Of a stretch of 48,129 nucleotides of DNA, positions 3,271-33,460 are shown piece after piece. Under the pieces are notes generated by a model, which saw only the letters and a program-made list of their open reading frames with translations, searched no databases and had not been told where the DNA came from. The translations under genes and the position numbers were made by a program. Positions within the stretch are counted from its first letter, which is position 1; each line of letters begins with the position of its first letter. This stretch comes from a virus, in the IMG/VR virus record IMGVR_UViG_3300021976_000027, positions 1 through 48,129 of that record; one strand, given 5' to 3'.

Positions 3271-3744
3271 CTAATCCCGTGAATGCTCGATTAGTTTCGC
3301 CTGTTGACCGGCGGCGCTCTTTTCCCAATCATCATTGCTGCCGTGATCCTTTACGATCATGACGCGGTTGTTCGTTACACTGTTGTTGATGTTGATCCCG
3401 CCGCCCTTTTCGATAAAGCCGCGCATTTCGGCATAAAGACGATAAGCGGCCAACCGGTCCTTAGCGTCACGGTTTTGCATTTCGGCAAGATCAAAAACAC
3501 GGCGAGCGGCGATAGCCTTCGACGGCAAGAAATAATCTTCGCCGAATTCGGCTAGCAAGTCGGCTTGTTTCGATAAGACATAGAAATCATGAACCCAGGT
3601 TTGCGAAACCTCAAGAGCGCGCACCGTGTTTGTTCCGAACAGCTTCAACGCGTTCCCAAATGGATCATTCGGGAATTGCAACAATAGCATTGCGTACGCG
3701 TCCTTAAGCGTATCGTCAAAACTTGTTAGCGTCGTCGTCTTCAT
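3271..3744 (-). CDS. terS: Probable terminase small subunit
   Basis: 157 aa, immediately upstream of terL. The N-terminal half is helical with a possible DNA-binding helix pair; the segment DAKDRLAAYRLYAEMRGFIEK is the type of region found before the C-terminal tail of many small terminase subunits. Its role would be to recognise the packaging site and regulate TerL. The start overlaps the upstream membrane-protein gene by 29 bases in another frame. Identification rests on position, size and pattern. Confidence 0.75.
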   Translation of the reverse strand: MKTTTLTSFDDTLKDAYAMLLLQFPNDPFGNALKLFGTNTVRALEVSQTWVHDFYVLSKQADLLAEFGEDYFLPSKAIAARRVFDLAEMQNRDAKDRLAAYRLYAEMRGFIEKGGGININNSVTNNRVMIVKDHGSNDDWEKSAAGQQAKLIEHSRD

Positions 3745-14269: not shown

Positions 14270-14662
14270 TTAATCGTCCGCAAGTTCGGCGATAAGATCA
14301 ACGATCCTGTTTTGAGTACGTTCGGACAGCTTAATAAAGCACCGTGACAGTTCGATCCCGCGACGCGTTTCTCCGAGTAAACGAATAGGATCGTTCAACA
14401 CGTCGGACGGAATATCATACGCCGTACCAAGGCCCGCTGTACCGTCGAACAAGTCAGCCGTCGTGCAATCGAGTGCGACAGCGATTTGAACCATGCGCGA
14501 ACCGCCGATACGATTTGCGCCTTTTTCATATTTCTGCACTTGTTGGAACGTTACGCCGAGTGCATCCCCCAATTTTTCTTGGGACATGCTTTTGAGCATA
14601 CGAAGGCGACGAACATTCTGACCAACGATCCGATCGACGGGATTGCATTCTTTTTTACGCAT
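14270..14662 (-). CDS. Xre/cI-family transcriptional regulator
   Basis: 130 aa. An N-terminal helix-turn-helix (IVGQNVRRLRMLKSMSQEKL through FQQVQKYEKGANRIG) is of a form very frequent in alphaproteobacterial Xre proteins. A C-terminal helical domain with FIKLSERTQNRIVDLIAEL may mediate oligomerisation. No LexA-like cleavage domain is present. ATG at 14662 has GGA 6 bases upstream; ATG at 14668 is the alternative. Its start overlaps the stop of the second HTH gene by 8 bases, so the two are co-expressed. Likely controls the early or accessory genes. Confidence 0.85.
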   Translation of the reverse strand: MRKKECNPVDRIVGQNVRRLRMLKSMSQEKLGDALGVTFQQVQKYEKGANRIGGSRMVQIAVALDCTTADLFDGTAGLGTAYDIPSDVLNDPIRLLGETRRGIELSRCFIKLSERTQNRIVDLIAELADD

Positions 14663-14951
14663 GGCCATTCCGCTTTGTTGTCCTGACCCAAGTTCGTTTG
14701 AAGCCGCACGATCGTCCGACAGCCTCAAGGCTCGCCGACTGCGGACGCTTGGTATCGCCAAAGAACCAAGCACGTTGCGCGTTGACGGATACCCCGCTAT
14801 CCTTAGACGTGGCTGTCAACGTCTTGTTGTTGATCGCCCCGTACGTATCGCCGACGATCGTGCGAAGTTCGTCAATCGCCGGGTCTTTCGATCGGAACAT
14901 GTACGAGCGATATCCGATAATACCGCGTTTCCCTTTTCGCTTTTGCACCAT
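14655..14951 (-). CDS. Small HTH DNA-binding protein
   Basis: 98 aa. After a basic leader the protein reads MFRSKDPAIDELRTIVGDTY and then ATSKDSGVSVNAQRAWFFG with TKRPQSASLEAVGRSCGF, the pattern of small phage helix-turn-helix proteins that resemble Cro-like regulators. Immediately upstream of, and overlapping, the Xre-type regulator gene. A two-regulator switch is an inference. Confidence 0.72.
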   Translation of the reverse strand: MVQKRKGKRGIIGYRSYMFRSKDPAIDELRTIVGDTYGAINNKTLTATSKDSGVSVNAQRAWFFGDTKRPQSASLEAVGRSCGFKRTWVRTTKRNGHA

Positions 14952-17811: not shown

Positions 17812-17840
17812 GTAGTTTGTACGTCAAAGTTCGTACGTAG

Positions 17841-18003
17841 TTACGCGAAAGTGAATGAATTGGTTGCGGGGTGGAATTGGTGGGGCCGCTCATTTTTGTT
17901 AACCCTAAATCCGGGTGGTAGGGGTATGCCCCCATTAACTTTAATTATTGAGGTTAATGCTTCGTCGAGTTCAACGATACGTTGTGTGATTGTGTTCGTT
18001 CCA
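17841..18003 (-). pseudogene. Possible small gene interrupted by a one-base frameshift
   Basis: From ATG at 18003 the frame closes after 16 codons. The neighbouring frame, however, reads TNTITQRIVELDEALTSI and on through NGGIPLPPGFRVNKNERPHQ to a TAA at 17841, a credible protein with no ATG, GTG or TTG of its own. One extra base near the fourth codon would join them into about 54 aa beginning METNTITQ. This is either a broken gene or a sequencing indel. No clear ribosome binding site is present. Confidence 0.4.
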
Positions 18004-18772
18004 TAATATACGTTATGCGAACTACTATAGGTTGAATATATAGTTCAATGATATCATGCACATACGTAGTTAACATACGTTAAGTATATACGTTATGTAT
18101 ATCACATGTCTTACCATGCATCTACAGCATAGCTACCCCTATTAACGTAAGGAATTAACGTTACCCGATAGCACTTAATTCAAATTGTTCGAATTCGTGA
18201 ATAGTATTCTGTTATCGTATTCAACACGTATCGTATACGTATCCCCCGTATTTATTCTGAATTAGCTCGATTTAAACATCGATCCGTCTGCTAAGTGCTT
18301 GATATTATTATATTATATATATATATTTACTATATTTACTATAATTACTATGGTTATTTTCATTTACTATAGATATTAGCGAAAATAGTAAAGCGAGTAA
18401 ATCTAGTAAATATCCCCCTTTTATCTAATGATATCAATGACTTACGACTTTCAAATTGATTTACTATCATAGTAAAGATAGTAAATGGACAGCCTAACCA
18501 TATACGCGTATATATTAATGAACATATTAATAAAACAAACGCGTATATCAGACTTCTCTTAAACACGCTATATAAATGCTATTTCAAACTACTATTCAAT
18601 AATACGTTTATTATATTCAATTCAATACATTACCAATGATCTACAGCGCAAATCGGTTAATCACCAATCGTAGAAAGCAAGGCGCATTAGGATCAGAGCA
18701 CATGCACAGAGCTATTCCCAGGCAACCGGATTTCTGCTAAGGGCATTTGCAGACACACCTAGGGAAGGTCGC
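18004..18772. other. AT-rich non-coding control region between divergent arms
   Basis: About 770 bp without credible genes, far richer in A and T than the rest. It separates the leftward and rightward arms. Contents: three ATACGTTA boxes (about 18007, 18077, 18090), an inverted repeat TTGAA-7-TTCAA (about 18033-18050), a promoter-like TTGATA-17-TATATT (18299-18327), the TTTACTAT array (18326-18485), and a perfect palindrome ATATACGCGTATAT (18500-18513) with a half copy at about 18540. A replication origin, early promoter region, or both, is the likely role. The last 100 bases are a leader to the gene at 18773, with AGGGAAGG before the ATG. Confidence 0.7.
18326..18485. repeat. Array of TTTACTAT / ATAGTAAA iteron-like boxes
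   Basis: About ten full or one-mismatch copies of the 8-bp box in both orientations: at 18326, 18335, 18344 (variant), 18363, 18385, 18395 (variant), 18403 (variant), 18460, 18469 and 18478. The last three are exact copies in a row, the first two facing each other across one base. Such clusters are typical binding sites for a replication initiator, partition protein or repressor. Confidence 0.7.
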
Positions 18773-19306
18773 ATGAGCGAACAACAGCGCCTATTGACAA
18801 TCAAGCGTCATGATTGGTTGTTGCGAATGTTGGCAACGATCCTGCAATCCGACACATCACGAACCGAAATGGCCAAGCTTCCGGCAGACGTGTTAGTTGC
18901 GCTCGTAATGTCCGGTAAAGATCACGGTATCGATGTTCAACGATACAAGGATCGTTGCGGTAACGACGCGATCGATTTGGTTGCGCAAATCCTATGGGCC
19001 ATGGTTGACGAACCTACGCATGGATCAATGTGGGAAGATAGGATGCAACGCGGGGAAGCACGGCGCGCGATGATTGAGCGAATGGAAAATTCGTTAGTGG
19101 ATAGTGCAATAGACGACGCATTGTTGCGTGCGATCAATGCCCACAATCTGCCGCAGAGTAAAAGCGATCCTGAATGCCCGTGTTTGTTCTGTACGGCAAA
19201 ACGCAATCGCGAAATGAGCGATAACCATCGTATTATAGATCAATTTAGGAAACAGCATGATCAACACGTGATTGATTATCGTGCTTATCGGAGTTTGCCC
19301 AAATGA
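18773..19306 (+). CDS. Hypothetical early protein, 177 aa
   Basis: First gene of the rightward arm. The protein is helical throughout (HDWLLRMLATILQSDTSR; DAIDLVAQILWAMVDE) with a C-terminal CPCLFC cysteine cluster. AGGGAAGG lies before the ATG. It is coupled to the next gene by an ATGA overlap. Position next to the iteron array makes it a candidate for binding there, but no DNA-binding motif is clear. Confidence 0.7.
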   Translation: MSEQQRLLTIKRHDWLLRMLATILQSDTSRTEMAKLPADVLVALVMSGKDHGIDVQRYKDRCGNDAIDLVAQILWAMVDEPTHGSMWEDRMQRGEARRAMIERMENSLVDSAIDDALLRAINAHNLPQSKSDPECPCLFCTAKRNREMSDNHRIIDQFRKQHDQHVIDYRAYRSLPK

Positions 19307-19545
19307 ACATGCCGGGATTGCTAACAGCAATGTTTGTGCGCAAGGCGAGCGTGCAACGGGTACAGGACATTGATAGCCGCTTGGGCTACTATTGGTGCGT
19401 CAAAAACACTTATGGCTGGCTCAAATGTACCAAGGCTGTTGAAGCCGCATTGCGCCATGAATATCTGGCACTCGCAATTGAACAGGATGTCTGGATTGTC
19501 ACACTAACCGACGAAGGCGTTGCATTCGTCAAGAGGTTCAAATGA
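19303..19545 (+). CDS. Hypothetical protein, 80 aa, winged-helix-like
   Basis: The pattern of helices followed by ALAIEQDVWIVTLTDEGVAF could be a small winged helix. ATGA overlaps with both neighbours place it in a coupled set of genes (18773-19769). Function unknown. Confidence 0.6.
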   Translation: MNMPGLLTAMFVRKASVQRVQDIDSRLGYYWCVKNTYGWLKCTKAVEAALRHEYLALAIEQDVWIVTLTDEGVAFVKRFK

Positions 19546-19769
19546 CACGTTTCAAGCCAGCGAGCCAAGAACCGTCAACATTACAAGAGGAACACGATAT
19601 CATTGATGGATTAATGAAGGCGCTGGCAATGCGCCTGTACCAGTTCAACCATGAACCAATCGAAATCACACTATTCGAATTACGCGAGGCGTTCGCTGTC
19701 GAATTCGAAATTCAATACGCCGAACACGATCATGCAACTATCTTAACCATTAGACGGGTGGCAGACTGA
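19542..19769 (+). CDS. Hypothetical protein, 75 aa
   Basis: Two helices then a beta hairpin (PIEITLFELREAFAVEFEIQ; HATILTIRRVAD). Coupled to the gene before by an ATGA overlap. Function unknown. Confidence 0.6.
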   Translation: MTRFKPASQEPSTLQEEHDIIDGLMKALAMRLYQFNHEPIEITLFELREAFAVEFEIQYAEHDHATILTIRRVAD

Positions 19770-19802
19770 ATTGCGTGCCATTCTCAGAAAGGAAAAAAAG
19801 TT

Positions 19803-20300
19803 ATGCCTGTCGAAATGTCAAACGAATATCGTAAGTACCGCGAACGTATGGTTGATCGCGGTATCGACATGGACAAGATTGCCGACGATACTGTACATCA
19901 AATTTGGGGAAAATTTGCTAAGCATTTTATGCATACTAAAGAGCCTCGTATACAATACGAGGTACAATACGTGTTGAAGATGGCGGATCGACAGGCATTC
20001 AACGAAATGGCGCAGCCGCTATTGCGTCAACTCATATCGAAAGGATATCAAGCGGGCGTTGAAGATACCAAAGCACCCGAATCGACAGGAGCGGAACGCG
20101 TTGTCGTATACAATATTGAATGCCCTAGCCGCCTAATCACATGGGGATATCAGAGATACGATGTGTATGAATGTATACGTCGTCGAGGGAAAGACGATTA
20201 TACGTTCAACGAGATTGAACGCAATTGGGTCGCGCGTTTTCGAGTATGGACAGACGCGCACAACTTCAAAATCAAATGTGAACAAGAGTTCGCGTCATGA
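19803..20300 (+). CDS. Hypothetical protein, 165 aa
   Basis: Begins MPVEMSNEYRKYRERMVDRG. N-terminal half helical; C-terminal half includes VVYNIECPSRLITWGYQRYD and a terminal basic region. AAAGGA precedes the ATG after a 33-bp gap. Coupled to the next gene by an ATGA overlap. No family recognised. Confidence 0.65.
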   Translation: MPVEMSNEYRKYRERMVDRGIDMDKIADDTVHQIWGKFAKHFMHTKEPRIQYEVQYVLKMADRQAFNEMAQPLLRQLISKGYQAGVEDTKAPESTGAERVVVYNIECPSRLITWGYQRYDVYECIRRRGKDDYTFNEIERNWVARFRVWTDAHNFKIKCEQEFAS

Positions 20301-20557
20301 CGGTATATCTAGCGTCACTCTTACAGTTATGCGACTTCTATCGCAATGTTGCCGATGTAATGGGTAACGTAAAGTTCATGTCGAAAGTATCGGCGTATTA
20401 CGCTCTCATGATTACAATTGCACCGTACCTAGTGCGCACCGATTTAGCCGCAGATACAATCGGTACAATTGCAATGGAGTATCGACGCGCACGCGCGCAA
20501 TACGAACACGAATGTTTCATAATCGAAGCTAACGCATCTTCGCCCGATAGCGAATAA
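20297..20557 (+). CDS. Hypothetical helical protein, 86 aa
   Basis: Begins MTVYLASLLQLCDFYRNVAD, helical with moderately hydrophobic stretches but no clear transmembrane segment. Its last 29 bases overlap the 3' end of the convergent primase gene. Last gene of the five-gene early set; function unknown. Confidence 0.62.
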   Translation: MTVYLASLLQLCDFYRNVADVMGNVKFMSKVSAYYALMITIAPYLVRTDLAADTIGTIAMEYRRARAQYEHECFIIEANASSPDSE

Positions 20558-22973
20558 GAAATTGCGTTTCATCGGCAATCCAATAGACTTTGCCATGTCC
20601 GGCATAGCGCCCAGGTTGGCCCGTATCCTTGTCCCTGATCTTATTCGCTGTTTCTTCGACCAAGATACCACGATCGACGAATGATCGTAGAGTATTGAAC
20701 ATGGCGTGTTTATAGCCCTGTTTCGCGTGTTTGAATGATCCTCTATTCTGCAATCGTAATGTAAAATACGTTTGTGGTATGATATGATCCCGATGATACA
20801 TTTCCGCTTCTTTCAACGGTACAAATGCTTTTATATGGTCAAATGACTTTGACAGATAATCAACAACGGTATCGATCAAATCTTTGTCCTGTTCGCTATC
20901 ATCCGAGATACGCCCAACCTGCCCATTTTCAAAGTGATTGACAACATTAGAAACGTCGTACGTTACAATACTCTCTGCCCATTCCCATATTGTTCGCGTC
21001 ACGGTTGGAAATTGTGGGTTCACTCCGACAGCCACAAGACATGCGAGCTTAAGCGCCTTCAAGTGTGCCCTATTCCATAGTTCGGCGATAGCTTCGTTGT
21101 CGGCGAGATTGATTAGCTTCGTGCAATCTTTGTCGTATGTATTTTGCATATGTGACGCATCTTGATCGAATTTGACATTGATCACTTTGCCTTGCCGCAT
21201 TAGATCGTGACACGTAGAGGCGAGCATGCCTAACTCTGTACAGAGTTCGGGAGTAGGATCAACGTTGGTATGAAACTCATTCAAGGGCGGGCGTTCGCCA
21301 TGATACTCAATCGTTAGAAATCGAGGCAGCAAACCTTGTGCGATCAATGCCGGTGTCAACGCTTCATAGAACGTGCTTGGCGTAGTCTCGGCAAGTAACG
21401 AGAATGCAGGCGATACGATAGCTTGCGTGTTCTTTGCTCGATCGGAATACGCAGACGATCCAAGTACGTTGTCCTTGCCACTCTTGCCATATAGGTCTAA
21501 CAGCATTCCACGTAACCCAATTAGATTGCTGTTTGCATGAATAGCTGTCATGGCTTGGAGCTTCAAACCGAATTCGCCAATCATCGCCACCATAGACGGC
21601 TTTTCAGCTAACTCTTTCAACAGCCCCATATCCGATCTTATTTCGCTAGGACCAATGAACGCGGCGATTGATGGTACAGCCGAACTAGCCGTGTTTGGTG
21701 TTAGCCTCGATACACGTTGAACAAGACGCGACACACCGCTTTGAATAGCTTCTTTGCCGCGCCCTGATTTCGCAATCAACAGCGTATAGAGGTTTAACCC
21801 CGCACCGGTTGGCGTGTTGAATGCTCGCCCGCAAATTCCAGCCATAAATCCCATTGCACCGGCTAACGCTATTTCAGGTACTTGGCGCGGTGCGGCGTCA
21901 TAGATGAATGTGGCGATCTTACCCATCAACCCAGGCGGTACGGTGTACGGATTGACAGCCGTCACCGCTTGTGTTCCATTGGCTTCTGCGGTGCCAACCG
22001 CTACGCTTGCGGCCCTTTCCTCCCTAGGTTTGGGGTCCGGCAATGACGCCCCGTTATCGGCCAGCCCCGGTAGCGGGGCGTTTGCGTATCTAGGATCGAA
22101 CGGGGCCATGTTGGCTTGCAACCGGTCGAAGTCCATTGGCGGGGCCATACGATCGAATGCCTTCAAGATCATCGTTTCTCGGTAATCTTTGCGCGAAGCT
22201 TTAGCGCGCTTACCTAATCCCGAACGTAAGAAGATACGTTCGATTTGTGCAACGTTACGCGTATACAATTGCACCATGTCAACGAACGCCATATCAGCCT
22301 CCGACTGCGATAACTGCGGCGGCGGATAATGCAATTGCCAATTACCTTCGAACAGATCACGAAACTTCGGACCAAATGATTGCGAGTTGCCGCACTTCTG
22401 AATAACCGTATCGTCGTCGTCCTTTTGTGCTTCGTCAGTTACAATAATTTCGCCTTTATCCGTCTTGCCAGTTTCAGCCCACAATACTTGTGCGAGTTGA
22501 ATTCGCTCTGCGATTGGCTTGTCGGCGATTACGTCGCCGGTCATGGTCATAAAGCGACCACTCGAATAGATTTCAATGTTGCCGCGCTTACGTCCGCTCG
22601 GAACGTGACCTTTCAAAATTAGATGCGCGCCCGTACCGGACGGCGATCGTTCGGCATACGTATCGAATGCATTGAATATACGTATCTGACGATCTAACGT
22701 GGCTTGATCAGTCGTCCCGTCAAGATCAATAAAACAGAATGGATCATTCAACGTTAGTACGAACCCAACCCCATGATACTCGGGATGTTCGGCAACTGCT
22801 TTAATGGCATGCTCGTACGTGACCCATGTTCGCGGATCATCGACAGCCGCCATAAATCCCGTCTTGGGATCGTATGGTACTTTGGTTGGTTTGCCGCCTA
22901 TACGTTCTTCATATCGCCATACTACCCATTGGAGGTATTGACGCATTTCGAGCGGTATACGGTGGTAATTCAT
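20529..22973 (-). CDS. Primase-polymerase/helicase-like replication protein (DUF3987 type)
   Basis: 814 aa. Residues 1-170 resemble the small primase-polymerase domain of phage and plasmid replication proteins: PTKVPYDPKTG, an acidic pair in FIDLDGT (Asp83, Asp85), ERSPSGTGAHLIL and IEIYSSGRFMTMTG. The larger C-terminal part matches DUF3987-type ATPases, with a diverged P-loop AKSGRGKE near 398-405 and a winged C-terminus. It would prime and possibly unwind DNA at the origin. It is the only leftward gene inside the rightward arm and has its own promoter (23011-23040). ATG at 22973 is chosen; an upstream TTG is possible. Confidence 0.85.
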   Translation of the reverse strand: MNYHRIPLEMRQYLQWVVWRYEERIGGKPTKVPYDPKTGFMAAVDDPRTWVTYEHAIKAVAEHPEYHGVGFVLTLNDPFCFIDLDGTTDQATLDRQIRIFNAFDTYAERSPSGTGAHLILKGHVPSGRKRGNIEIYSSGRFMTMTGDVIADKPIAERIQLAQVLWAETGKTDKGEIIVTDEAQKDDDDTVIQKCGNSQSFGPKFRDLFEGNWQLHYPPPQLSQSEADMAFVDMVQLYTRNVAQIERIFLRSGLGKRAKASRKDYRETMILKAFDRMAPPMDFDRLQANMAPFDPRYANAPLPGLADNGASLPDPKPREERAASVAVGTAEANGTQAVTAVNPYTVPPGLMGKIATFIYDAAPRQVPEIALAGAMGFMAGICGRAFNTPTGAGLNLYTLLIAKSGRGKEAIQSGVSRLVQRVSRLTPNTASSAVPSIAAFIGPSEIRSDMGLLKELAEKPSMVAMIGEFGLKLQAMTAIHANSNLIGLRGMLLDLYGKSGKDNVLGSSAYSDRAKNTQAIVSPAFSLLAETTPSTFYEALTPALIAQGLLPRFLTIEYHGERPPLNEFHTNVDPTPELCTELGMLASTCHDLMRQGKVINVKFDQDASHMQNTYDKDCTKLINLADNEAIAELWNRAHLKALKLACLVAVGVNPQFPTVTRTIWEWAESIVTYDVSNVVNHFENGQVGRISDDSEQDKDLIDTVVDYLSKSFDHIKAFVPLKEAEMYHRDHIIPQTYFTLRLQNRGSFKHAKQGYKHAMFNTLRSFVDRGILVEETANKIRDKDTGQPGRYAGHGKVYWIADETQFLIRYRAKMR

Positions 22974-23010
22974 TCGCAACCCGGACAAGACGGTTACGCC
23001 ACGCGCCGAC

Positions 23011-24221: not shown

Positions 24222-24491
24222 ATGCTGGATATCTCGGACGGTTGTATTTGGAATGGATCAAAGCCGGTCGCGCGTCTTGACCCCAAATTACTTCCGTCCG
24301 AGATTGACGCTATCAACGCGACTTTGAACCCCGTTTACGAGCCTGACGAAGCAACGTTCGAATATCAAGAGGTTAAAGAAATCCTAGGAAAGCTTCGAAT
24401 TCGCGCCGTTGCATTGGCGAAAGCCGGTAACGTTACTGTTGCCGAACTTTCCGATTTAATTGAAGAATTAATTGATGAGGAAATCGAATGA
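24222..24491 (+). CDS. Hypothetical acidic protein, 89 aa
   Basis: Begins MLDISDGCIWNGSKPVARLD; the C-terminal half is an acidic helix (AELSDLIEELIDEEIE). Coupled to the Sak4-like gene by an ATGA overlap, so a partner role for it is plausible. Function unknown. Confidence 0.65.
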   Translation: MLDISDGCIWNGSKPVARLDPKLLPSEIDAINATLNPVYEPDEATFEYQEVKEILGKLRIRAVALAKAGNVTVAELSDLIEELIDEEIE

Positions 24492-25183
24492 CTGTTTACC
24501 TACGTTCAACGTCGGATATCGCAATCAACGGCGTCAAGTGCCTTGTCTATGGCCCGCCGAAAGTCGGCAAGACGCGCCTAATCGCAACAGCGCCAGCCCC
24601 TGTTATTCTTTCGGCCGAAGGCGGCTTGTTGTCACTGCGCCAATACAATTTGCCGTATATCGAAATCAAGACAATGCTTGATCTATCGGAGGCGTACCGA
24701 TGGTACACGCAAGCACAAGAGGCAAAACAGTTCTACACGATCGGGCTAGATAGCATTTCCGAAATCATCGAAGTGCTTCTAGAGCATGAGAAAGCACGGA
24801 CGCGTGATCCGCGCAAAGCGTACGGCGAAATCATAACGCAAGGCTTACGGATTGTGCGCGACTTCCGCGACATACCGGGCCGTAACGTCGTCATGACGGC
24901 GAAGATGGAATACAGTAAGGACGAAGCGAACGGAATGATGCTGTTTCAGCCTTCATTTCCAGGTTCGAAACTCGGCCCGGCTGTACCGTACTTTCCCGAC
25001 GAAATATTTCAGTATTGCGTGTTCACAAATCCCCAAACCGGACAACGCGGCGAATTCCTGCGTTGTTGGGCCGATCAACAAAACATCGCTGGCGACCGTA
25101 GCGGCGCTTTGGATCAATGGGAGTTACCGAACTTGTCGAACGTATTCGCCAAGATCGCAAGCGGTCATATAGCAAAACGATGA
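24488..25183 (+). CDS. Sak4-like RecA-type ATPase, single-strand annealing/recombination
   Basis: 231 aa. Residues 22-29 are GPPKVGKT (Walker A), YTIGLDSISE near 84-93 is the Walker B region, and LRIVRDFRDIPGRNVVMTAK follows as in the AAA_24 (PF13479) phage nucleotide-binding proteins that include Sak4. These enzymes act in phage homologous recombination with an SSB-like partner, encoded two genes downstream. Coupled on both sides by ATGA overlaps. Confidence 0.85.
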   Translation: MTVYLRSTSDIAINGVKCLVYGPPKVGKTRLIATAPAPVILSAEGGLLSLRQYNLPYIEIKTMLDLSEAYRWYTQAQEAKQFYTIGLDSISEIIEVLLEHEKARTRDPRKAYGEIITQGLRIVRDFRDIPGRNVVMTAKMEYSKDEANGMMLFQPSFPGSKLGPAVPYFPDEIFQYCVFTNPQTGQRGEFLRCWADQQNIAGDRSGALDQWELPNLSNVFAKIASGHIAKR

Positions 25184-25380
25184 CACCAGAACAGAGAGCG
25201 GCGTTTGTAGTCGCACAAGCCGCGTGCGCCCAAGCTGAAACGTTTGCTATGCAATCGCAGAACTTTATGGATGCAAGGGAGAACAAGCCGCTAACGTACT
25301 CGTACGCCGACTTCATAGCAATACAAGACCGCTACGTGATCGGTCATAACGCCGTAATCTCATTTATGGCACACTCCTAA
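25180..25380 (+). CDS. Hypothetical protein, 66 aa
   Basis: Begins MTPEQRAAFVVAQAACAQAE; helical. The ATG overlaps the stop of the ATPase gene, so this start is preferred to an upstream one at 25117. It lies between the ATPase and the ssDNA-binding-like protein. Function unknown. Confidence 0.62.
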   Translation: MTPEQRAAFVVAQAACAQAETFAMQSQNFMDARENKPLTYSYADFIAIQDRYVIGHNAVISFMAHS

Positions 25381-25397
25381 ACAGGAAGGAATGAACA

Positions 25398-26333
25398 ATG
25401 TTTAGTTTCGACGCCCGAACAGTCGCACCGCAAACGGCAATGGAGCCTGTACCGCTCGGCTGGTATAAGTGCATCATCGTCAAGTCGAATATCAAGCCAA
25501 CCAAGAACGACACAAGCCAAGCGTTTCTTGAATTGGTATTGAAGATCATCGAAGGCCAATTCGCGGATCGTCAAGTTTACATCAACCTGAATATCTTCAA
25601 CCAATCACAACAGGCTGTTGAAATTGCGTACAAGCAATTGAGCGCAATCTGTCACGTGATCGGACAATACAATGTTCAAGCGCAACAAAACGCGCCGGAC
25701 ATGACAACGCCGATGCTGCACAACATTCCATTCATGGCGTATATCGTCGTCGGAACCGGCACGAACGGCCCGAACAACAACGTCAAGGGCTTCAAGGATA
25801 TCGCTGGCAACGATCCCGGCAAGCAAGGTCAGGCGCAGACGATCCCCGGCGGCGCACCGCAAGGCTTTGGAGCGCAGCCGCAACCGGGGCAGGCGCAGCC
25901 GGGCGGTACATGGGCGGGGCCGCAAGGCGGTATGGCACCGGGCGGCAATATGCCCTATGGCGGCGCTGCCCCACAGCAGCAGGGCGGCGGGTGGCCCGGT
26001 GGCGGACCACAGCCCCAACAGCAGCCGAACCCGCAACCGCAGTATCAACAGCCGAACCCAGCGCCACAAGGCAACGGCGGTTGGTCAACCGGACCGGCGC
26101 AACCCCAGGCAACGCCGAACTATCAACCGCCGCCGCCGAACCAACAGCCTCAACAGCCGCAACAGTTCGCGCAACCACAACCGCAACAGGCGCAACCGCA
26201 GCAGCCGCAGTACCAGCAGGCGGCACCGCAAGGCCAACCGCAGTACCAGCAGCCACAACCGGGGCAATTCCAGCCGCAACAGGGACCGGGGCCGCAAGGC
26301 GGTCCGGCCGGTGCCGCACCTTGGTCGCGCTAA
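25398..26333 (+). CDS. DUF669 ssDNA-binding-like protein with 165-aa Q/P/G-rich tail
   Basis: 311 aa. Residues 1-135 match DUF669 (PF05037): a beta-barrel of SSB type beginning MFSFDARTVAP, with PLGWYKCIIVKSNIKPT and QAFLELVLKIIEGQFADRQV. Residues from about 145 onward are almost only Gln, Pro, Gly, Ala and Asn, with NGGWSTGPAQ inside, and the protein ends AAPWSR. DUF669 proteins accompany Sak4-like ATPases and polymerases and are thought to coat ssDNA. The long tail resembles the disordered linkers of bacterial SSB, but the acidic tip expected at its end is missing. Confidence 0.82.
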   Translation: MFSFDARTVAPQTAMEPVPLGWYKCIIVKSNIKPTKNDTSQAFLELVLKIIEGQFADRQVYINLNIFNQSQQAVEIAYKQLSAICHVIGQYNVQAQQNAPDMTTPMLHNIPFMAYIVVGTGTNGPNNNVKGFKDIAGNDPGKQGQAQTIPGGAPQGFGAQPQPGQAQPGGTWAGPQGGMAPGGNMPYGGAAPQQQGGGWPGGGPQPQQQPNPQPQYQQPNPAPQGNGGWSTGPAQPQATPNYQPPPPNQQPQQPQQFAQPQPQQAQPQQPQYQQAAPQGQPQYQQPQPGQFQPQQGPGPQGGPAGAAPWSR

Positions 26334-26378
26334 CGTAGGAAGGTTCCACGACTTCTTACGGATAGGGCGATCGTTGGG

Positions 26379-26411
26379 CCGTCCGGGGTCATAGACACCC
26401 GCCCCGGACGG
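26379..26411 (+). terminator. 10-bp perfect hairpin after the ssDNA-binding gene
   Basis: CCGTCCGGGG (26379-26388) pairs with CCCCGGACGG (26402-26411) across a 13-base loop. It follows the DUF669 gene and precedes the nuclease GTG start by 22 bases. No T run follows, so it is more likely an RNA stabiliser, attenuator or partial terminator than an efficient terminator. Confidence 0.45.
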
Positions 26412-26433
26412 TTCAACCATTTAGGGGGCAATC

Positions 26434-27288
26434 GTGACGTATCAGCCGCATTTACTCGTAACGATCGCAAACCGCATCAGCGATGATATCGACGCATTCT
26501 CGATTAAACAGTACCAAGATCAACACCGTTCGCACTTAGGCGCGAGTGTGATCGGCCATGATTGCTGGCGCTATTCATGGTACGCGTTCCGTTGGATCAA
26601 AAGCGAAATATTCTCCGGTCGAATGCTGCGCCTGTTTCAACGCGGACACGACGAAGAAAGCAAATGCATCGCGAACTTACGCGGGATCGGGTTTGAAGTT
26701 TGGAACGCGCAAGTCGGCGGCGACCAATTCCGTATTGTGGGGGCCAAAGGTCATTACGGCGGATCAACGGATAGTGTCGCGGGTAGTCCTTACAAGGATT
26801 TTCCCGAGAAACTGATTTGCGAATTCAAGACGCATAATTCTAAGTCACTAACGAACTTACACCATAAGAAACTTATGGTGTCTAAGCCACGACATTACGC
26901 GCAAATGTGCAACTATGGAAAAGCGTTCGGGATCAAATACGGGCTGTACTATGCCGTCGGTAAGAACGACGACGATATTTATATTGAAGTCGTCGAACTT
27001 GATTGGACGCTCGCCGACGACTTGTACAAGAAAGCGGAAGACATTATTTTCTCACCACATCCGCCGCCAAAGCTCGCAATGCAAGCGGACTATTACGAAT
27101 GTAAAATATGCCCGTTCAAAGGGCCATGCCATCACAATACGGATATCGATCGTAATTGCCGTAGCTGTATTCACGCGCATCCAATCGAGGAAGCGCAATG
27201 GGGATGCGACGAACACAAAGTTATCATCCCAAAAGAATTTCTGCCGCAAGGCTGCGATCGTTGGCAACCAATTGTCAATCGAGGCTAA
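26434..27288 (+). CDS. Cas4/RecB-like PD-(D/E)XK exonuclease
   Basis: 284 aa, GTG start with AGGGGG upstream. HDCWRYSWYAFRW holds Cys44; GSTDSV (109-114) gives the catalytic aspartate; ICEFKTH (about 128-134) the E-x-K; QMCNYGKAFG the downstream motif. YECKICPFKGPC (222-233) and Cys44 together give the four cysteines expected for the iron-sulphur cluster of Cas4 and AddB-type nucleases. It is likely a 5'-3' end-resecting exonuclease that supplies ssDNA to the annealing proteins encoded upstream. A second cysteine group CRSCIH follows. Confidence 0.85.
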   Translation: MTYQPHLLVTIANRISDDIDAFSIKQYQDQHRSHLGASVIGHDCWRYSWYAFRWIKSEIFSGRMLRLFQRGHDEESKCIANLRGIGFEVWNAQVGGDQFRIVGAKGHYGGSTDSVAGSPYKDFPEKLICEFKTHNSKSLTNLHHKKLMVSKPRHYAQMCNYGKAFGIKYGLYYAVGKNDDDIYIEVVELDWTLADDLYKKAEDIIFSPHPPPKLAMQADYYECKICPFKGPCHHNTDIDRNCRSCIHAHPIEEAQWGCDEHKVIIPKEFLPQGCDRWQPIVNRG

Positions 27289-27293
27289 ACACG

Positions 27294-27461
27294 ATGATGA
27301 CAAAGGTTCATGGTAAGCACGTCTTTGAATGCGATACGTGTGCTGCTATCCTCGATAGTGAAACAAGAGATTTTCACGAAGCACTAGACGTGTTAAACGA
27401 ACATGGGTGGCGCTCCGTCCGGTCGAATAAAGAATGGGAACATCGTTGTCCTAGGTGTTAG
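27294..27461 (+). CDS. Small zinc-ribbon protein, 55 aa
   Basis: Begins MMTKVHGKHVFECDTCAAIL and ends HRCPRC. Two Cys-x2-Cys knuckles separated by about 40 residues make a single zinc ribbon. The stop codon abuts the helicase ATG. GAGG lies 10 bases before the start. Possibly an accessory to the helicase. Confidence 0.65.
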   Translation: MMTKVHGKHVFECDTCAAILDSETRDFHEALDVLNEHGWRSVRSNKEWEHRCPRC

Positions 27462-29057
27462 ATGATCTTCGAACGACGCTGGTATCAAACCGAAGCTGTC
27501 GATAGTATCTTTCGGTACTTCGAACAGAAAGACGGCAATCCGGTTGTGGCTATGCCTACCGGCACCGGAAAGAGTGTCGTCATAGCTCTATTCCTACAAA
27601 TCATTTATCAGTATTGGGCGCATCAACGCGTCATGATGCTGACACATGTTAAAGAGTTGATTGGACAGAACGCGGCCAAACTACTTGATGCATGGCCAAC
27701 CGCGCCCCTTGGTATCTATTCGGCAGGGCTACGCCAACGCGCTACGATGAACCCGATCATATTTGGCGGCGTCAAGTCCGTTGTCAATTGCGTAGAGGCG
27801 TTCGGTTGGGTGGATTTGTTGATCATTGACGAATGCCACTTGATCAACCCAAGTGCGAGTAGCGACTATCAGAAAATCATTGCGAAGCTTAAAGAAATCA
27901 ATCCAAAGCTCAAAGTCATAGGTTTGACGGCGACGTGGTATCGGTTAGGTCAAGGGCTGTTGACGCAAGGCAACATCTTTACGGATATCTGCTACAACAT
28001 TTGCGATACGATTGGTTTCAATCGATTGATATCCGAAGGCTATCTTTCGCCTCCGATACCGAAAACGACAAAGACGTTACTCGACGTTTCGAAAGTTAGC
28101 ATAGGCAGCAATGGCGACTTTACTCAATCGCAGCTACAGGCGGCTGTTGACAAGCAAGACGTAAATTTCAGCGCTGTTTCCGAAATGGTTGAACGCGGAC
28201 AAGATCGCCATTCGTGGCTTACATTCTGTTCGGGTATCGAACACGCCGAACATATCGCCGAATTGTTGAATAACTATTTTGGGATACCGACTGTCGCCGT
28301 TCATTCCAACATGTCAACGGGAGAACGCGACGCAGCAATCAAAGGGTTCAAGAACGGCGACTATCGCGCGTTGACTTGCAACAACATTTTCACGACTGGC
28401 CAAGATCATCCGCCAATCGACTTGATAGGAATGCTACGCCCCACAACCTCGACGGGGCTATGGGTTCAAATGGTTGGACGTGGTACGCGACCGTCACCGG
28501 AAACCGGCAAACGCAATTGCATGATTTTGGACTACGCTCGTAACTGCCAACGGTTAGGCCCGATCGACGATCCGAACATACCGCGACCGAAAGGCGGCGG
28601 CGGGGGCGATGCGCCGGTCAAGATATGCGACTACTGCGGCGCGTTCAATCATGCGCGAGCGGCCTTTTGTATCGATTGCGGTCAACCATTCGTCTTTGAA
28701 CAGAAGCTAATCCGGCAAGCGGACACACGACAAATCCTATCAAGCGGAATGCCGCAAGTCGAACGATACGAAGTTAGCCGCGTCATGTACAACCGTCACG
28801 TAGCACGCAAGAGCGGAAAGACCAATATCAAAGTGTCGTATATGTGCGGCTTGCAAATGTTCCAAGAATATATCTCATTCGATCAAACCGGGTACGCATT
28901 GCACCGCGCCCATGAATGGTGGCGGCAACGCCATGAAAGTCCGCCGCCATTGTCAACTGATCTAGCCTTGCTCGGATTGTCGCAACTGCGAACGCCGAAA
29001 GCTATCAAGGTATGGGTCAATAAAAATCCACCGGAAATATTGTCCCATGAATACTAG
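27462..29057 (+). CDS. RadD-like superfamily 2 helicase
   Basis: 531 aa. Motif I is MPTGTGKS (about 30-37), motif II DECH (about 122-125), motif III LTAT, and motif VI QMVGRGTR (about 335-342). A zinc ribbon follows the helicase core, CDYCGAFNHARAAFCIDCG at about 389-407, the layout of E. coli RadD (YejH). RadD acts in recombination repair and binds the C-terminal tip of SSB. The next replication protein downstream, the clamp-like gene, ends in that very tip. The gene overlaps its downstream neighbour by 11 bases. Confidence 0.85.
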   Translation: MIFERRWYQTEAVDSIFRYFEQKDGNPVVAMPTGTGKSVVIALFLQIIYQYWAHQRVMMLTHVKELIGQNAAKLLDAWPTAPLGIYSAGLRQRATMNPIIFGGVKSVVNCVEAFGWVDLLIIDECHLINPSASSDYQKIIAKLKEINPKLKVIGLTATWYRLGQGLLTQGNIFTDICYNICDTIGFNRLISEGYLSPPIPKTTKTLLDVSKVSIGSNGDFTQSQLQAAVDKQDVNFSAVSEMVERGQDRHSWLTFCSGIEHAEHIAELLNNYFGIPTVAVHSNMSTGERDAAIKGFKNGDYRALTCNNIFTTGQDHPPIDLIGMLRPTTSTGLWVQMVGRGTRPSPETGKRNCMILDYARNCQRLGPIDDPNIPRPKGGGGGDAPVKICDYCGAFNHARAAFCIDCGQPFVFEQKLIRQADTRQILSSGMPQVERYEVSRVMYNRHVARKSGKTNIKVSYMCGLQMFQEYISFDQTGYALHRAHEWWRQRHESPPPLSTDLALLGLSQLRTPKAIKVWVNKNPPEILSHEY

Positions 29058-29538
29058 AGAACAATCACGTATCGGTCGAAAGATGATACGGCACCGTAAC
29101 GAAGTGCTACGATCATTGGATATCGTAGCATTCGATCGGTACTGCCGTAAATGGAAAGTGCCGATCCCGGCAGGCGGTTGGCTTCCGTTGGCTCGCGAAA
29201 TTCTCATGCACAAATCCCGTGTCGAATTTGATACATTTTCTGATGATGAAAAGGAATTCAGCCGACGTTGGCTAATCGAACACGGATTTAGTGATCAACT
29301 CGGAACGTTGCACATGACATTTGCGCCGGGCGAATGGTGGAAAATACCGCTCGCACTTCGCAAGCGGTATTGGCTCGAAACCGACTACGGTAAGAACCCG
29401 CCAACGATCGAACTAGCCGAACTAATCTGGATCGCGCTAGGAAAGATGACGCTATGCGAGGATTGCGGAAAGAACCCAGCCGATCCGCCGTCGAAACTTT
29501 GCCCAGGCTGTCGCGCGTACAAGGAACATACCACATGA
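29047..29538 (+). CDS. Hypothetical protein with C-terminal zinc knuckle pair
   Basis: 163 aa. Helical, charged N-terminal 130 residues; the C-terminus has LCEDCGKNPADPPSKLCPGC, a compact zinc ribbon. Coupled to the helicase upstream by overlap and to the next gene by ATGA. A helicase or polymerase accessory role is inference. Confidence 0.65.
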   Translation: MNTREQSRIGRKMIRHRNEVLRSLDIVAFDRYCRKWKVPIPAGGWLPLAREILMHKSRVEFDTFSDDEKEFSRRWLIEHGFSDQLGTLHMTFAPGEWWKIPLALRKRYWLETDYGKNPPTIELAELIWIALGKMTLCEDCGKNPADPPSKLCPGCRAYKEHTT

Positions 29539-30092
29539 TCGCAAGACCGACTGCCGTTACCCAACCATGGACGCATTCGCTAACGTTCATGCAACAAACC
29601 GTTCTCTTGACAGCCGTACGCGGACCGGACGGCTTACCCAAATATTCAGGCGTCAAATACCTGCTGCGTTGGTATCGACGTTGCATTCTCGTATCATCGC
29701 TTGATGGTGGCGTAATTCTTGAAAACCCATATACACCCGTTGGCGGATCATTCATGGGGCCGTCGTTCGATGAAAATCGGCTTAGCATGGACACTAACGA
29801 AAATCCGCGCCGCCCCGCGACGTGGCAAGACCATATGGACGATATCGTATCGCAGTATCTTCGCGAACTTGATGGTATTCCGCATCATTTCCAATTGCAT
29901 TTGATGCACTCATTCGAAATCGTCGGGTACAAGCATCCGTCAGTCGAAATACGCGATTGGTTCAACCTCGCGTATCAGCGTCTCGTACACGATCTTCACT
30001 TGTGGCCAGAAACCGAAGAACAGCTAGACGCGCGATTGAACGATACGCGCGACGGTTGGTTGGCGCGAGCGGACAAGGCGACGGTCGCGTAA
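29535..30092 (+). CDS. Hypothetical conserved phage protein, 185 aa
   Basis: Starts MIARPTAVTQPWTHSLTFMQ. The sequence QTVLLTAVRGPDGLPKYSGV, LLRWYRRCIL and later HHFQLHLMHSFEIVGYKHPS recurs in phage proteins of Rhizobiales and related hosts. The ATG overlaps the previous stop (ATGA); an upstream frame from 29454 is rejected. Function unknown. Confidence 0.72.
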   Translation: MIARPTAVTQPWTHSLTFMQQTVLLTAVRGPDGLPKYSGVKYLLRWYRRCILVSSLDGGVILENPYTPVGGSFMGPSFDENRLSMDTNENPRRPATWQDHMDDIVSQYLRELDGIPHHFQLHLMHSFEIVGYKHPSVEIRDWFNLAYQRLVHDLHLWPETEEQLDARLNDTRDGWLARADKATVA

Positions 30093-30093
30093 C

Positions 30094-31200
30094 ATGGCAA
30101 AGAAACCACGGGGAAAAGCCAAGACCGATCCGACCAAGAACCCAGCAACGGCGTCACTACTCGCCGCGCTCAAATTCATTGAACCGGCGTCGCGCGAGGA
30201 AGGCCAAATTAATCAAATCCACTGCGCGCTTACCGGTGGTTGGGCCGCGTCGTTCGATGGTACGCTTTGCATGGCCGCAAAGATCGATACGGATATCGTA
30301 TGCTATCCGAACACGAAACGACTAATCAGCGTTTTGTCTAAGTGCAAAGATACGACGCAGATAACGCAACTCGATAACGAACGATTGCACGTCAAGTCAG
30401 GACGGTTTGACGCGTACGTTCCATGTATCGATCCCGCGTTGTTTTCCATTACCCCGCCCGATCCGCCAGCGTTCCCAATCGACAAAAAGCTAATCGACGC
30501 GTGTAACATTGTGGGGAAACTTGTCGCTGAAAATGCCGAACGCATGGTTGAAGCCTGCGTGTTGGTTCGCAATGGTTCATGCGTCGCAACCAATGGCGTA
30601 ATCCTGTTCGAGCAATGGCACGGCTGGCAATTGCCGTTCCGCGCCGTAGTCCCGAAACTGTTCATATCGCAATTAGGTAAGATCGCGAAGCTTCCGACGC
30701 ATTGCGGTGCAAGCGAAACAACATTCACAATTTGGTTCGAAGATGGATCGTTTATTCGAACACAACAGTACGTCGAAAAATACCCGGATACAGACGGACA
30801 GATATGGGACAACGTACGCGCCCAACCGTACGACATTCCGGCAGGTTTCTTTGACGCTATCGATGCAATCGAGGCGCTAGCGGACGACAAAAATCCGCGC
30901 GTATACACGATAGACAAAGGGATTAGAACCCATGACGGCGAAGGCGTTGGCGCGTTCTACGAAATCGAAGGTATACCGCCCGATCTATGCTTTGATATCG
31001 ACTATGTTAAAATGTTTGCCCCACACGCGAGCAAGGTCGATTTCGTCGCATCGGTGCCGAACGGTAATACGCTTGCGTTCTTCGGCGAAAGCTTTCGGGG
31101 ATTGCTTATGCATATCCGATGTACGCCGCAGAAAGTTGAACGTGAACCACTCGCCGTAGGTACAAGCCGATCGGACATGGACGACGACATTCCTTTTTAA
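30094..31200 (+). CDS. Sliding-clamp-like protein with SSB-type C-terminal tip
   Basis: 368 aa, the length of bacterial beta clamps (about 366). Three roughly equal blocks show the clamp pattern: block 1 around CALTGGWAASFDGTLCMAAK, block 2 with ATNGVILFEQW, FRAVVPKLFISQLGKIAKLP and TIWFEDGSFIRTQQY, block 3 around IPAGFFDAIDAIEAL and GNTLAFFGESFRG. It would tether the family A polymerase encoded two genes later. The last residues are DMDDDIPF, identical to the tip of E. coli SSB (DDDIPF), which recruits repair proteins. The clamp call is by length, pattern and context; the tail is seen directly. Confidence 0.75.
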   Translation: MAKKPRGKAKTDPTKNPATASLLAALKFIEPASREEGQINQIHCALTGGWAASFDGTLCMAAKIDTDIVCYPNTKRLISVLSKCKDTTQITQLDNERLHVKSGRFDAYVPCIDPALFSITPPDPPAFPIDKKLIDACNIVGKLVAENAERMVEACVLVRNGSCVATNGVILFEQWHGWQLPFRAVVPKLFISQLGKIAKLPTHCGASETTFTIWFEDGSFIRTQQYVEKYPDTDGQIWDNVRAQPYDIPAGFFDAIDAIEALADDKNPRVYTIDKGIRTHDGEGVGAFYEIEGIPPDLCFDIDYVKMFAPHASKVDFVASVPNGNTLAFFGESFRGLLMHIRCTPQKVEREPLAVGTSRSDMDDDIPF

Positions 31201-31214
31201 TGGAGGTTGAAACT

Positions 31215-31457
31215 ATGGCAACGAAACGCGAAGTATTACTAGCAGCAGCCAAGGGCGAAGGTTGCCTAGGGAAAGCCGCCGACGACGAACCCGTATTCGT
31301 CTTACGCGCGCAAGATATTCTAGCGCCCATGGCTATTCGCGATTGGGCGTATCGAGCCGCGACGCGTACCGGACACCGTGCGCCGAAAGTCGTACAAGCG
31401 GAAAAAGACGCGTTAGAATTTATCGCGTGGCAAGGTTCGAAGAAACTCCCCGACTAA
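31215..31457 (+). CDS. Hypothetical protein, 80 aa
   Basis: ATG at 31215 has GGAGG 9 bases upstream; an ATG at 31200 overlaps the clamp stop and has no site. The product is helical and mildly basic (RDWAYRAATRTGHRAPKVVQ). It lies between the clamp-like gene and the polymerase and shares one base with the polymerase start. Function unknown. Confidence 0.7.
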   Translation: MATKREVLLAAAKGEGCLGKAADDEPVFVLRAQDILAPMAIRDWAYRAATRTGHRAPKVVQAEKDALEFIAWQGSKKLPD

Positions 31458-33460
31458 TGTTCTTCGACGACATAGACCTAGGCCCGTTGAAGAAACGAGC
31501 TTTGTTGAAAGTGCCGCCGCCAGCCCCTAACACGGGCTGGCGTCCGCCGTCCGACTTCCCGAACCTATCGAACGCAACCGTCATTGGATTTGATACCGAA
31601 GGCAAAGAAGACGATTGGGACCATGGCCCCGGTTGGGCACGCGGCAAATCTGATCTAGTCGGCTATTCGCTCGCCGCTAAGGATCGTCAAGGCAATACCG
31701 GCAAATGGTATTTCCCGTTCGGACACCGCGTCGGAACGGAAGATAACTTAGACCGCAACCATTGCCTTGCGTTCTTAAAACATACTCTTGAAACAACGAC
31801 GAATGTTCCGAAAGTCGGAGCTAACTTGCTGTTCGACGTTGGCATGCTTACCGACTATGACATAAAAGTTAAGGGCAAGCTGTTCGACGTTCAATTCGCC
31901 GAAGCTCTATTGAACAGCGATGGATTAGTCAACCTTGACCATTTGGGCGAGCAATATCTAAAGCAAGGTAAAACGACGAATGCCCTATACGAATGGTGCG
32001 CGTCGGCTTACGGCGGACCGCCAACGGGCGTTCAACGTAACAACATTTGGCGAACGCCTCCGCAGTTAGTCGGACCGTACGGCGAAGATGACGCTTTTCT
32101 ACCGATCGAGATTTACGAGAAACAATCGCCGTTATTACATGCGCAATATCTCAGCGACTTGTTTGAAATGGAATGCGGATTGATCCCGTTGCTTGTGCAA
32201 ATGCGGATCGAAGGCGTAACAGTCGATTTGAAACAAGCGCAAGCATTACACGACGAACTTACGATCGAGATAGCGCGGCTGTACGTTGAACTTTACAACT
32301 TAGTCCCGATCCGAATTGAGAGTGTCAACAGCGGCGACGATATCGCCCGTCTATTCGATGCGTCGGGTATAACGTACCCAACAACGGCGCAAGGCAATCC
32401 ATCATTCCGCAAAGACTGGCTAAAGAATTTAGAGCACCCAGTCGCGGACAAAATAAACGAGATACGCGAGTATGAAAAAATTCAATCGACATTTATTAGG
32501 AACTACATTCTTGAAGGTAACACGAACGGAAAGATACATTGCCAATTCCATCCTCTACGTAATGACGACGGAGGCGCTCGTACAGGACGGTTTGCAAGCT
32601 CTGATCCAAACTTACAGAACATTCCAGTACGAACTAAGCTCGGCAAGCGTGTTAGACGCTGCTTTACGTATGACCATGGACACATTGCATGGGAAAAGAA
32701 CGATTATTCTCAAATTGAATACCGCGACCTAGCACACTTTGCTTGTGACGACGGCGACGGTTCGGCCGATCGATTGCGCGAAGCTTATCGCCTTGATCCC
32801 AAAACGGACTATCACAAGCAAACTCAAAACAACGTTCTAAATCTAACCGGGATCGAGATTGATCGACGGCCGATCAAGAACATGAATTTCGGACTTGTAT
32901 ACGGCATGTCGGAAGGAAAGCTAATCCGACAAAACGGATTTACTCAATCGCAAGGGAAAGCGGTATTCAAAGCGTATCACGAAGGAAACCCGTACGTCCG
33001 CCCCACAATGAAAGCGGCGGCCGATGAAATGCAAAAGCTTGGATATATCACGACGGTTCTAGGACGGCGAACCCGGTTCAACTATTGGGAACCGCTCTTT
33101 CGTGACTACGACAAGCCGCGCCCGCCAGCGTTGCCGTATGACTATGCGATACGTCGGTACGGATCATTGATCAAACGCGCCGACGAACACAAGGCAATCA
33201 ATTATCGCCTGCAAGGCAGCGCCGCAGAGCATATCAAAGCCGGGATGTATCGATGCTGGAAAGAGGGAATATTTGACGTTACAGGCGTCCCCAGGCTACA
33301 GATACACGACGAACTTGATTTTAGCGTCCGTGATGAAAATCCGGCGACTAACGAGGCGTTCGCCGAAATGCGTATCCGTCTTGAGACTGCGTGCCCGATC
33401 CGCGTTCCAGTTCGAGTTGACTTTGCGCGGGCGGCGTCATGGGGTGACATAGCTGATTAG
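31457..33460 (+). CDS. polA: Family A DNA polymerase with 3'-5' exonuclease domain
   Basis: 667 aa. Residues 1-250 are a DnaQ-like 3'-5' exonuclease with IGFDTEGKE (Asp46, Glu48) and GANLLFDVGML. The polymerase motifs are A: NDYSQIEYRDLAHF (about 413-426; Tyr replaces the usual Leu after the Glu), B: RRPIKNMNFGLVYGMS (about 470-485; the ribose-selecting position is Phe, as in E. coli Pol I), C: QIHDELDFSV (about 613). No 5'-3' exonuclease domain. It is the replicative phage polymerase. ATG at 31457 shares a base with the previous stop. Confidence 0.95.
   Translation: MFFDDIDLGPLKKRALLKVPPPAPNTGWRPPSDFPNLSNATVIGFDTEGKEDDWDHGPGWARGKSDLVGYSLAAKDRQGNTGKWYFPFGHRVGTEDNLDRNHCLAFLKHTLETTTNVPKVGANLLFDVGMLTDYDIKVKGKLFDVQFAEALLNSDGLVNLDHLGEQYLKQGKTTNALYEWCASAYGGPPTGVQRNNIWRTPPQLVGPYGEDDAFLPIEIYEKQSPLLHAQYLSDLFEMECGLIPLLVQMRIEGVTVDLKQAQALHDELTIEIARLYVELYNLVPIRIESVNSGDDIARLFDASGITYPTTAQGNPSFRKDWLKNLEHPVADKINEIREYEKIQSTFIRNYILEGNTNGKIHCQFHPLRNDDGGARTGRFASSDPNLQNIPVRTKLGKRVRRCFTYDHGHIAWEKNDYSQIEYRDLAHFACDDGDGSADRLREAYRLDPKTDYHKQTQNNVLNLTGIEIDRRPIKNMNFGLVYGMSEGKLIRQNGFTQSQGKAVFKAYHEGNPYVRPTMKAAADEMQKLGYITTVLGRRTRFNYWEPLFRDYDKPRPPALPYDYAIRRYGSLIKRADEHKAINYRLQGSAAEHIKAGMYRCWKEGIFDVTGVPRLQIHDELDFSVRDENPATNEAFAEMRIRLETACPIRVPVRVDFARAASWGDIAD

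Follow-up and report, generated by a model that had tools for sequence, protein, structure and literature searches.

Facing cores and 9-bp iterons downstream of a primase-helicase gene as the likely replication origin of a siphophage-like virus

To our knowledge, most phages other than a few models have no mapped replication origin. In the SaPIs, the origin has iterons immediately past the gene of the Rep helicase, and these are recognised by the C-terminal domain of that helicase, apparently in the form of two hexamers (PMC7581432). Phage NrS-1 has one 8-nt recognition site per strand near the centre of its genome, which may serve as the origin (PMC7102993). The general design of iteron plasmid origins has also been described (PMC10797057), and those with IHF, such as R6K and pSC101, combine short direct repeats and a replicon-encoded initiator with an AT-rich unwinding region and bend sites for nucleoid proteins.

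The window considered in the current analysis is the whole of an IMG/VR virus record (48,129 nucleotides). Its gene content is siphophage-like, with portal, terminase, capsid and tail genes. The head genes continue from one end of the contig into the other, and these ends overlap (1-143 and 47987-48129; 143 bases with 135 identities, hence not exactly), for which reasons the record is probably a complete genome of about 48.0 kb that is circularly closed or permuted. No near-DNA match to the window was found in phages and plasmids, and Rfam and tRNA searches of the 48 kb gave no match. We consider it likely from the comparison of sequences that a cluster of short boxes in this genome is the iteron part of the phage replication origin, which would be opened by the primase-helicase of the phage with the help of a host bending protein. 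The features concerned are given below.

17812-18772, no strand: non-coding gap of 961 bp that holds the repeat structure, flanked by divergent gene arms
18291-18303, plus strand: core 1, CTAAGTGCTTGAT; 22.1 bits, the best site in the whole window, and a strict consensus match
18292-18444, no strand: inverted repeat of two putative half-origins, with arms 18292-18351 and 18385-18444, from arm alignment
18302-18351, no strand: 50-bp segment with the highest AT content in the gap (6% GC), in the left arm; candidate unwinding element
18326-18351, plus strand: left inner iterons, TTTACTAT at 18326 and 18335 and ATTACTAT at 18344, with a 9-bp period
18363-18370, plus strand: central TTTACTAT box between both arms, from the box search
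18385-18410, minus strand: right inner iterons, boxes at 18403, 18394 (two mismatches) and 18385, with a 9-bp period
18433-18445, minus strand: core 2, GTAAGTCATTGAT, opposing core 1; 20.5 bits, second best in the window, and a strict consensus match
18460-18485, no single strand: right outer boxes, TTTACTAT at 18460 (plus), 18469 (minus) and 18478 (minus), in 9-bp steps
18773-20557, plus strand: five small genes without family match, between the putative origin and the primase gene
20529-22988, minus strand: primase-helicase, the proposed initiator, with PrimPol (residues about 7-281), MCM-like AAA+ helicase (352-685) and winged-helix-like C-terminus (about 725-804)
24488-33460, plus strand: replication module of Sak4-like annealing protein, SSB, Cas4-like exonuclease, helicase, clamp-like factor and DNA polymerase

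The initial annotation had described ten boxes in both orientations at 18326-18485, in an AT-rich region between divergent gene arms and with the last three boxes contiguous, and in all these respects it is borne out. Seven boxes are exact copies of TTTACTAT (18326, 18335, 18363 and 18460 on the plus strand; 18385, 18469 and 18478 on the minus strand) and three are near copies, of which those at 18344 (plus) and 18403 (minus) have one mismatch and the third, read from the sequence as TTTACTCG at 18394-18401 (minus), has two. The starts of the last three are stepped by 9 bp, and the GC content of the gap is about 35% as against 52% for the genome. Eight of the nine exact copies of TTTACTA/TAGTAAA in the full 48-kb window fall within 161 bp, which leaves a sole copy outside the cluster. 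The 8-mer ATAGTAAA occurs seven times in the 961-bp gap; the top count of any 8-mer in 1000 dinucleotide shuffles of the gap was 7, and 8 was never reached. The span originally assigned was too narrow, as the structure also includes the inverted repeat and the two cores at 18291-18303 and 18433-18445; the boxes had thus been seen while the conserved cores, and with them the structure as a whole, had been missed. To the left of the putative origin, four boxes of the type TACGTTA/TAACGTA occur at 18009-18149 (14 in the window against 6.9 expected), possibly as an early-promoter or regulator site.

With a core matrix trained on the relatives, the window being left out, the third-best site of the window reaches 12.0 bits as compared to the 22.1 and 20.5 bits of the two cores, and the best score in 1000 mononucleotide shuffles of the gap is 16.6 bits. 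The box runs, counted inward, are placed at 18326, 18335 and 18344 on the plus strand and at 18410, 18401 and 18392 on the minus strand, and the distance between core and first inner box is exactly 22 nt in both halves. The arms of the inverted repeat are of 60 nt each, 73% complementary and separated by a spacer of 33 nt. Three boxes are situated outside core 2 (18460-18485), and no convincing boxes were found outside core 1. Elements characteristic of iteron origins are present together, namely direct repeats spaced by 9 bp, a segment of 6% GC and a replicon-encoded primase-helicase gene 2.1 kb away.

The primase shares 44-45% identity with the primases of Burkholderia phage KL1, Variovorax phage VCLv11 and the Septimatrevirus group. 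Its N-terminal half has sequence matches to SaPI5 PriRep (7ola; profile E-value 2.8e-58 over positions 7-260) and to the NrS-1 polymerase, and the predicted fold of the PrimPol domain matches NrS-1 PrimPol with a Z score of about 21. The HBD family is matched by 37/37 members. An AEP PrimPol fold and a helix-bundle domain are both present in the window primase, which places it with the PrimPols of NrS-1 type. The helicase half matches the Pfam family DUF3987, annotated as of 'unknown function'; the predicted fold of residues 352-685 aligns with MCM AAA+ domains (Z 17.8, rmsd 3.6 over 252 residues), so that the DUF3987 region of this PrimPol fusion is predicted to be a helicase of the MCM-like AAA+ type. 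The C-terminus (about 725-804) has the order helix-strand-helix-helix-strand-strand found in winged helices, and its structural matches, which are weak (Z 7-9, Foldseek E-value 0.13 at best), are nearly all to winged-helix proteins. It is the least conserved part of the primase, with 23% as against 36-66% for most of the rest. Scans with single proteins for close relatives of the primase or of the first small gene returned none; the small genes at 18773-20557 have no family match and the first of them is without a relative.

The likeness to the SaPI origins, as represented by SaPI5 PriRep, lies in a primase-helicase initiator with a related N-terminal half and in an iteron origin downstream of the initiator gene. 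The window is, however, an autonomous phage, which encodes terminase, portal, capsid, tail and polymerase itself, and not a satellite island. Only the PrimPol-HBD half of its primase matches 7ola by sequence, the helicase being MCM-like (DUF3987) unlike the Primase_Cterm type reported for SaPI5 Rep, and the window has conserved IHF-like cores in which it also differs. Because of the autonomous phage and the differing helicase half, the origin is not filed with those of the SaPIs. NrS-1 shares a PrimPol and HBD of the same kind, but the window has ten arrayed boxes and two cores, and the NrS-1 site TTTGGTTA is absent from the 48 kb. The iteron plasmids with IHF share the elements listed at the outset; in contrast to them the window has a mirror-symmetric double half-origin, repeats of 9 bp and a PrimPol-helicase as putative initiator, and lacks a DnaA box at the site. 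The best reading by analogy is that the origin would resemble a SaPI-type or iteron-plasmid origin in its working without being a member of the SaPI group.

Phages sharing the primase are considered here as relatives, with an identity of about 40-45% in those that have a core pair, and they were scanned with a core matrix refined on pairs. A convergent core pair scoring above every divergent-pair and reversed-sequence control was identified in 20/79 relatives and in the window; against the reversed-sequence control alone, 35/79 and the window exceed. Many of the 79 relatives have no core pair detectable in this matrix scan. In each of these 20 phages the pair is situated on the 3' side of the primase gene, at distances between about 30 bp (L105) and 4.3 kb (L127), and in the window it lies 2.1 kb past the 3' end of the gene with the five small genes between. 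Among core pairs of strict consensus in the primase family, 13 loci are facing as against 3 divergent. A clear inner repeat is present in 42 arms of the relatives, and its period is 9 bp in 30 of them.

In one relative (L107/L355) the very same TTTACTAT box forms an array near the primase gene, and most others have variants differing by a few bases; the conservation of the repeats in relatives, on which the initial annotation had made its proposal depend, is thereby supported. The boxes in the gaps of relatives are other words, such as ATATAATAA, TAGGATA, TTGGTAT, GTATAAT, GTTTAAT, TTCTTAC and ATATAGTAA, and beside these differing boxes a common core of about CTAAGTCATTGAT occurs in facing pairs. 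Relative to the cores, the window boxes are oriented opposite to the ATATAATAA boxes of most relatives. The group of Burkholderia phage KL1 and Pseudomonas phage 73 (Septimatrevirus, Kilunavirus) resembles the window in its replication module and in its primase (about 44%). KL1 carries a core pair with ATATAATAA boxes 1.2 kb past its own primase gene; unlike the window, its boxes are different and start about 8 nt past the core. The KL1 genome paper does not mention repeats or an origin.

Box similarity tracks primase similarity; the Mantel r is 0.36 when the PrimPol is compared and 0.47 with the helicase region (p 0.001). A specific coevolution of the boxes with the primase C-terminus was considered and discarded, as the C-terminal signal disappears after correction for the other domains (partial r -0.13) and a general co-divergence is what remains. 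Since the C-terminus adds nothing to the co-divergence after this correction, the binding of the boxes by the winged helix is suggested by analogy. Repeat arrays detected without supervision were also rejected as a marker of the origin: 43/59 were counted downstream and 43/56 upstream of the primase, and they do not discriminate because the repetitive coding sequence of the SSB region gives as many.

For the two half-origins, whose anatomy and conservation are described above, we infer the following course of protein action. Host IHF or an IHF-like protein at each core would fold the flanking boxes together. The primase-helicase would bind the boxes, probably through its C-terminal winged helix, and may assemble as two opposed hexamers. 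The AT-rich left arm would then melt and the MCM-like helicase rings load, upon which the PrimPol domain could lay the first primers for bidirectional replication. Between phages the boxes diverge while the cores and the geometry stay. The window has no exact copy of the DnaA boxes TTATNCACA; one match with a single mismatch lies in the gap at 18054, and the total is below chance. Because a DnaA box is absent, the phage probably needs no host DnaA at this origin. The initial annotation had looked for the binding protein at 18773-20557 and among the HTH genes at 14270-14951, which the comparison does not uphold, since it favours the primase-helicase (20529-22988). The GC skew, also proposed there as a check, follows the gene strand and carries no mark of an origin.

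In the papers searched, which make up only part of the literature, the core was not recognised as a described element of origins. If the reading as an origin is true, a short rule (two facing cores with 9-bp boxes that differ from phage to phage, located downstream of a PrimPol-helicase gene) would locate the origins of a large group of siphophages including the cultured KL1. It would also provide a direct system for the study of how the specificities of origin and initiator shift together within a constant host-bending frame, and the unnamed DUF3987 helicases could be tested for a role as replicative helicases that are MCM-like and load themselves.

The cluster had been taken initially as an origin, a partition site or a repressor array. 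Its reading as an origin is strengthened by the same layout 3' of the primase in at least 20 relatives, and the other two fare less well. An operator array, at which a repressor or early regulator (the HTH_3 protein encoded at 14270-14773, or a ribbon-helix-helix protein) would act on two divergent early operons, is an unlikely explanation. The position of the cluster between divergent operons and the presence of the HTH_3 gene are in keeping with it, as is the unrelated AT-rich viral contig L054, where TTTACTAT/ATAGTAAA boxes at 3637-3700 lie just upstream of a small gene whose product resembles, by eye, a ribbon-helix-helix protein. It leaves unexplained why the cores are conserved and convergent, why the arms mirror each other over 60 nt and why the place by the primase is constant; moreover, the relatives retain the geometry while the box changes, and promoter-like matches in the gap number 3 against a shuffle mean of 5.6. 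The L054 boxes are probably an independent operator. The palindrome TTTACTATNATAGTAAA was also followed through the viral contigs; it occurs in 53 stretches, mostly as single copies in AT-rich DNA, and was read as chance, with more than three copies only in L054 and L005.

A sigma-70 promoter array, with the cores as -35 elements (TTGAT) and the AT-rich boxes as -10 elements, is very improbable. Two promoter-like matches do draw on the cores, each on the TTGATA of one core and with a spacer of 17 nt, and the ATATAATAA boxes of relatives look like -10 elements. Both promoters would nevertheless converge and drive no gene, the distance from core to box varies in relatives, the CGCCGACA, TGTGAGAA and AATGTTCC boxes of contigs with core pairs are unlike -10 elements, and promoter-like sites are rarer in the gap than in shuffles. 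Partition sites typically have short repeats clustered in non-coding DNA, as the gap does, but a centromere-like site for plasmid-like maintenance is the least probable of these alternatives and can practically be set aside, as a ParB_N family match is absent from the contig and in relatives the element follows the primase gene rather than a partition operon.

Returning to the reading as an origin, both window cores fit exactly the string WATCAANNNNTTR, which is in use in the literature as the IHF consensus (18292-18304 as the reverse complement TATCAAGCACTTA, and 18432-18444 as TATCAATGACTTA), and judging from this fit they are regarded as IHF-like sites. GT occupies the first two spacer positions in 29/35 consensus sites inside origins as against 1/36 outside, an enrichment that is partly circular because most of the origins were found through that core. 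The conserved GT is not demanded by the IHF consensus, and the bending protein may therefore not be IHF. No IHF/HU genes were found in the contig. The facing core pair also occurs in bacterial contigs that lack the primase considered here, chiefly beside priA in Comamonadaceae, which argues for a host protein at the cores.

In the viral collection, facing cores 115-145 bp apart were identified in 49 stretches, as against 6 for the reversed pattern. At least eight of the 49 (L139, L146, L156, L159, L160, L161, L176 and L179) represent by eye one bacterial tRNA-like region, and these were dropped. In most of the remaining convergent stretches the cores are flanked on either side by phage-specific boxes (GGTGAAC, TGTGAGAA, AATGTTCC, CGCCGACA, TTAACTTTA, GATAAAAA). 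Divergent core pairs are found in 30 stretches, several of them with boxes around AT-rich centres. As divergent pairs are also frequent, the core appears to be widely used without an orientation fixed across phages, and convergence as a general rule is weakened, while the facing arrangement prevails within the primase family. We put forward, tentatively and as a less than even possibility, that the core TAAGTNNTTGAT may be a widely shared origin frame read by a host bending protein that is sharper than the E. coli IHF consensus. The frame would be kept while iterons and initiators diverge fast, giving rise to origin compatibility types, and the Comamonadaceae priA pair might be its cellular counterpart.

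Among the GTDB contigs (L187-L296), the Comamonadaceae chromosomes have a facing core pair about 162 bp across (for example L210:6758-6919, L211:475-636 and L207:3700-3861), usually around TTATCCACA, which is a perfect DnaA-box sequence. The presence of priA next to the pair has been confirmed in two of these loci (L207 and L211). The pair of Ramlibacter terrae is not adjacent to dnaA but lies at a distance of 0.6 Mb. The Rhizobium group has a core pair of about 145 bp around AATAAGTGATCCAC-like repeats. Two short viral contigs carry the core-pair element twice each and have no phage-style boxes (L143:1074-1216 and 3329-3471; L162:1026-1168 and 1990-2132). Another group, comprising L342, L343 and L350 and their relatives L332, L336 and L340, has an inverted GTAATTTTACGCTTTT-like repeat surrounded by several cores, and looks like another design of origin or control element with the same core.
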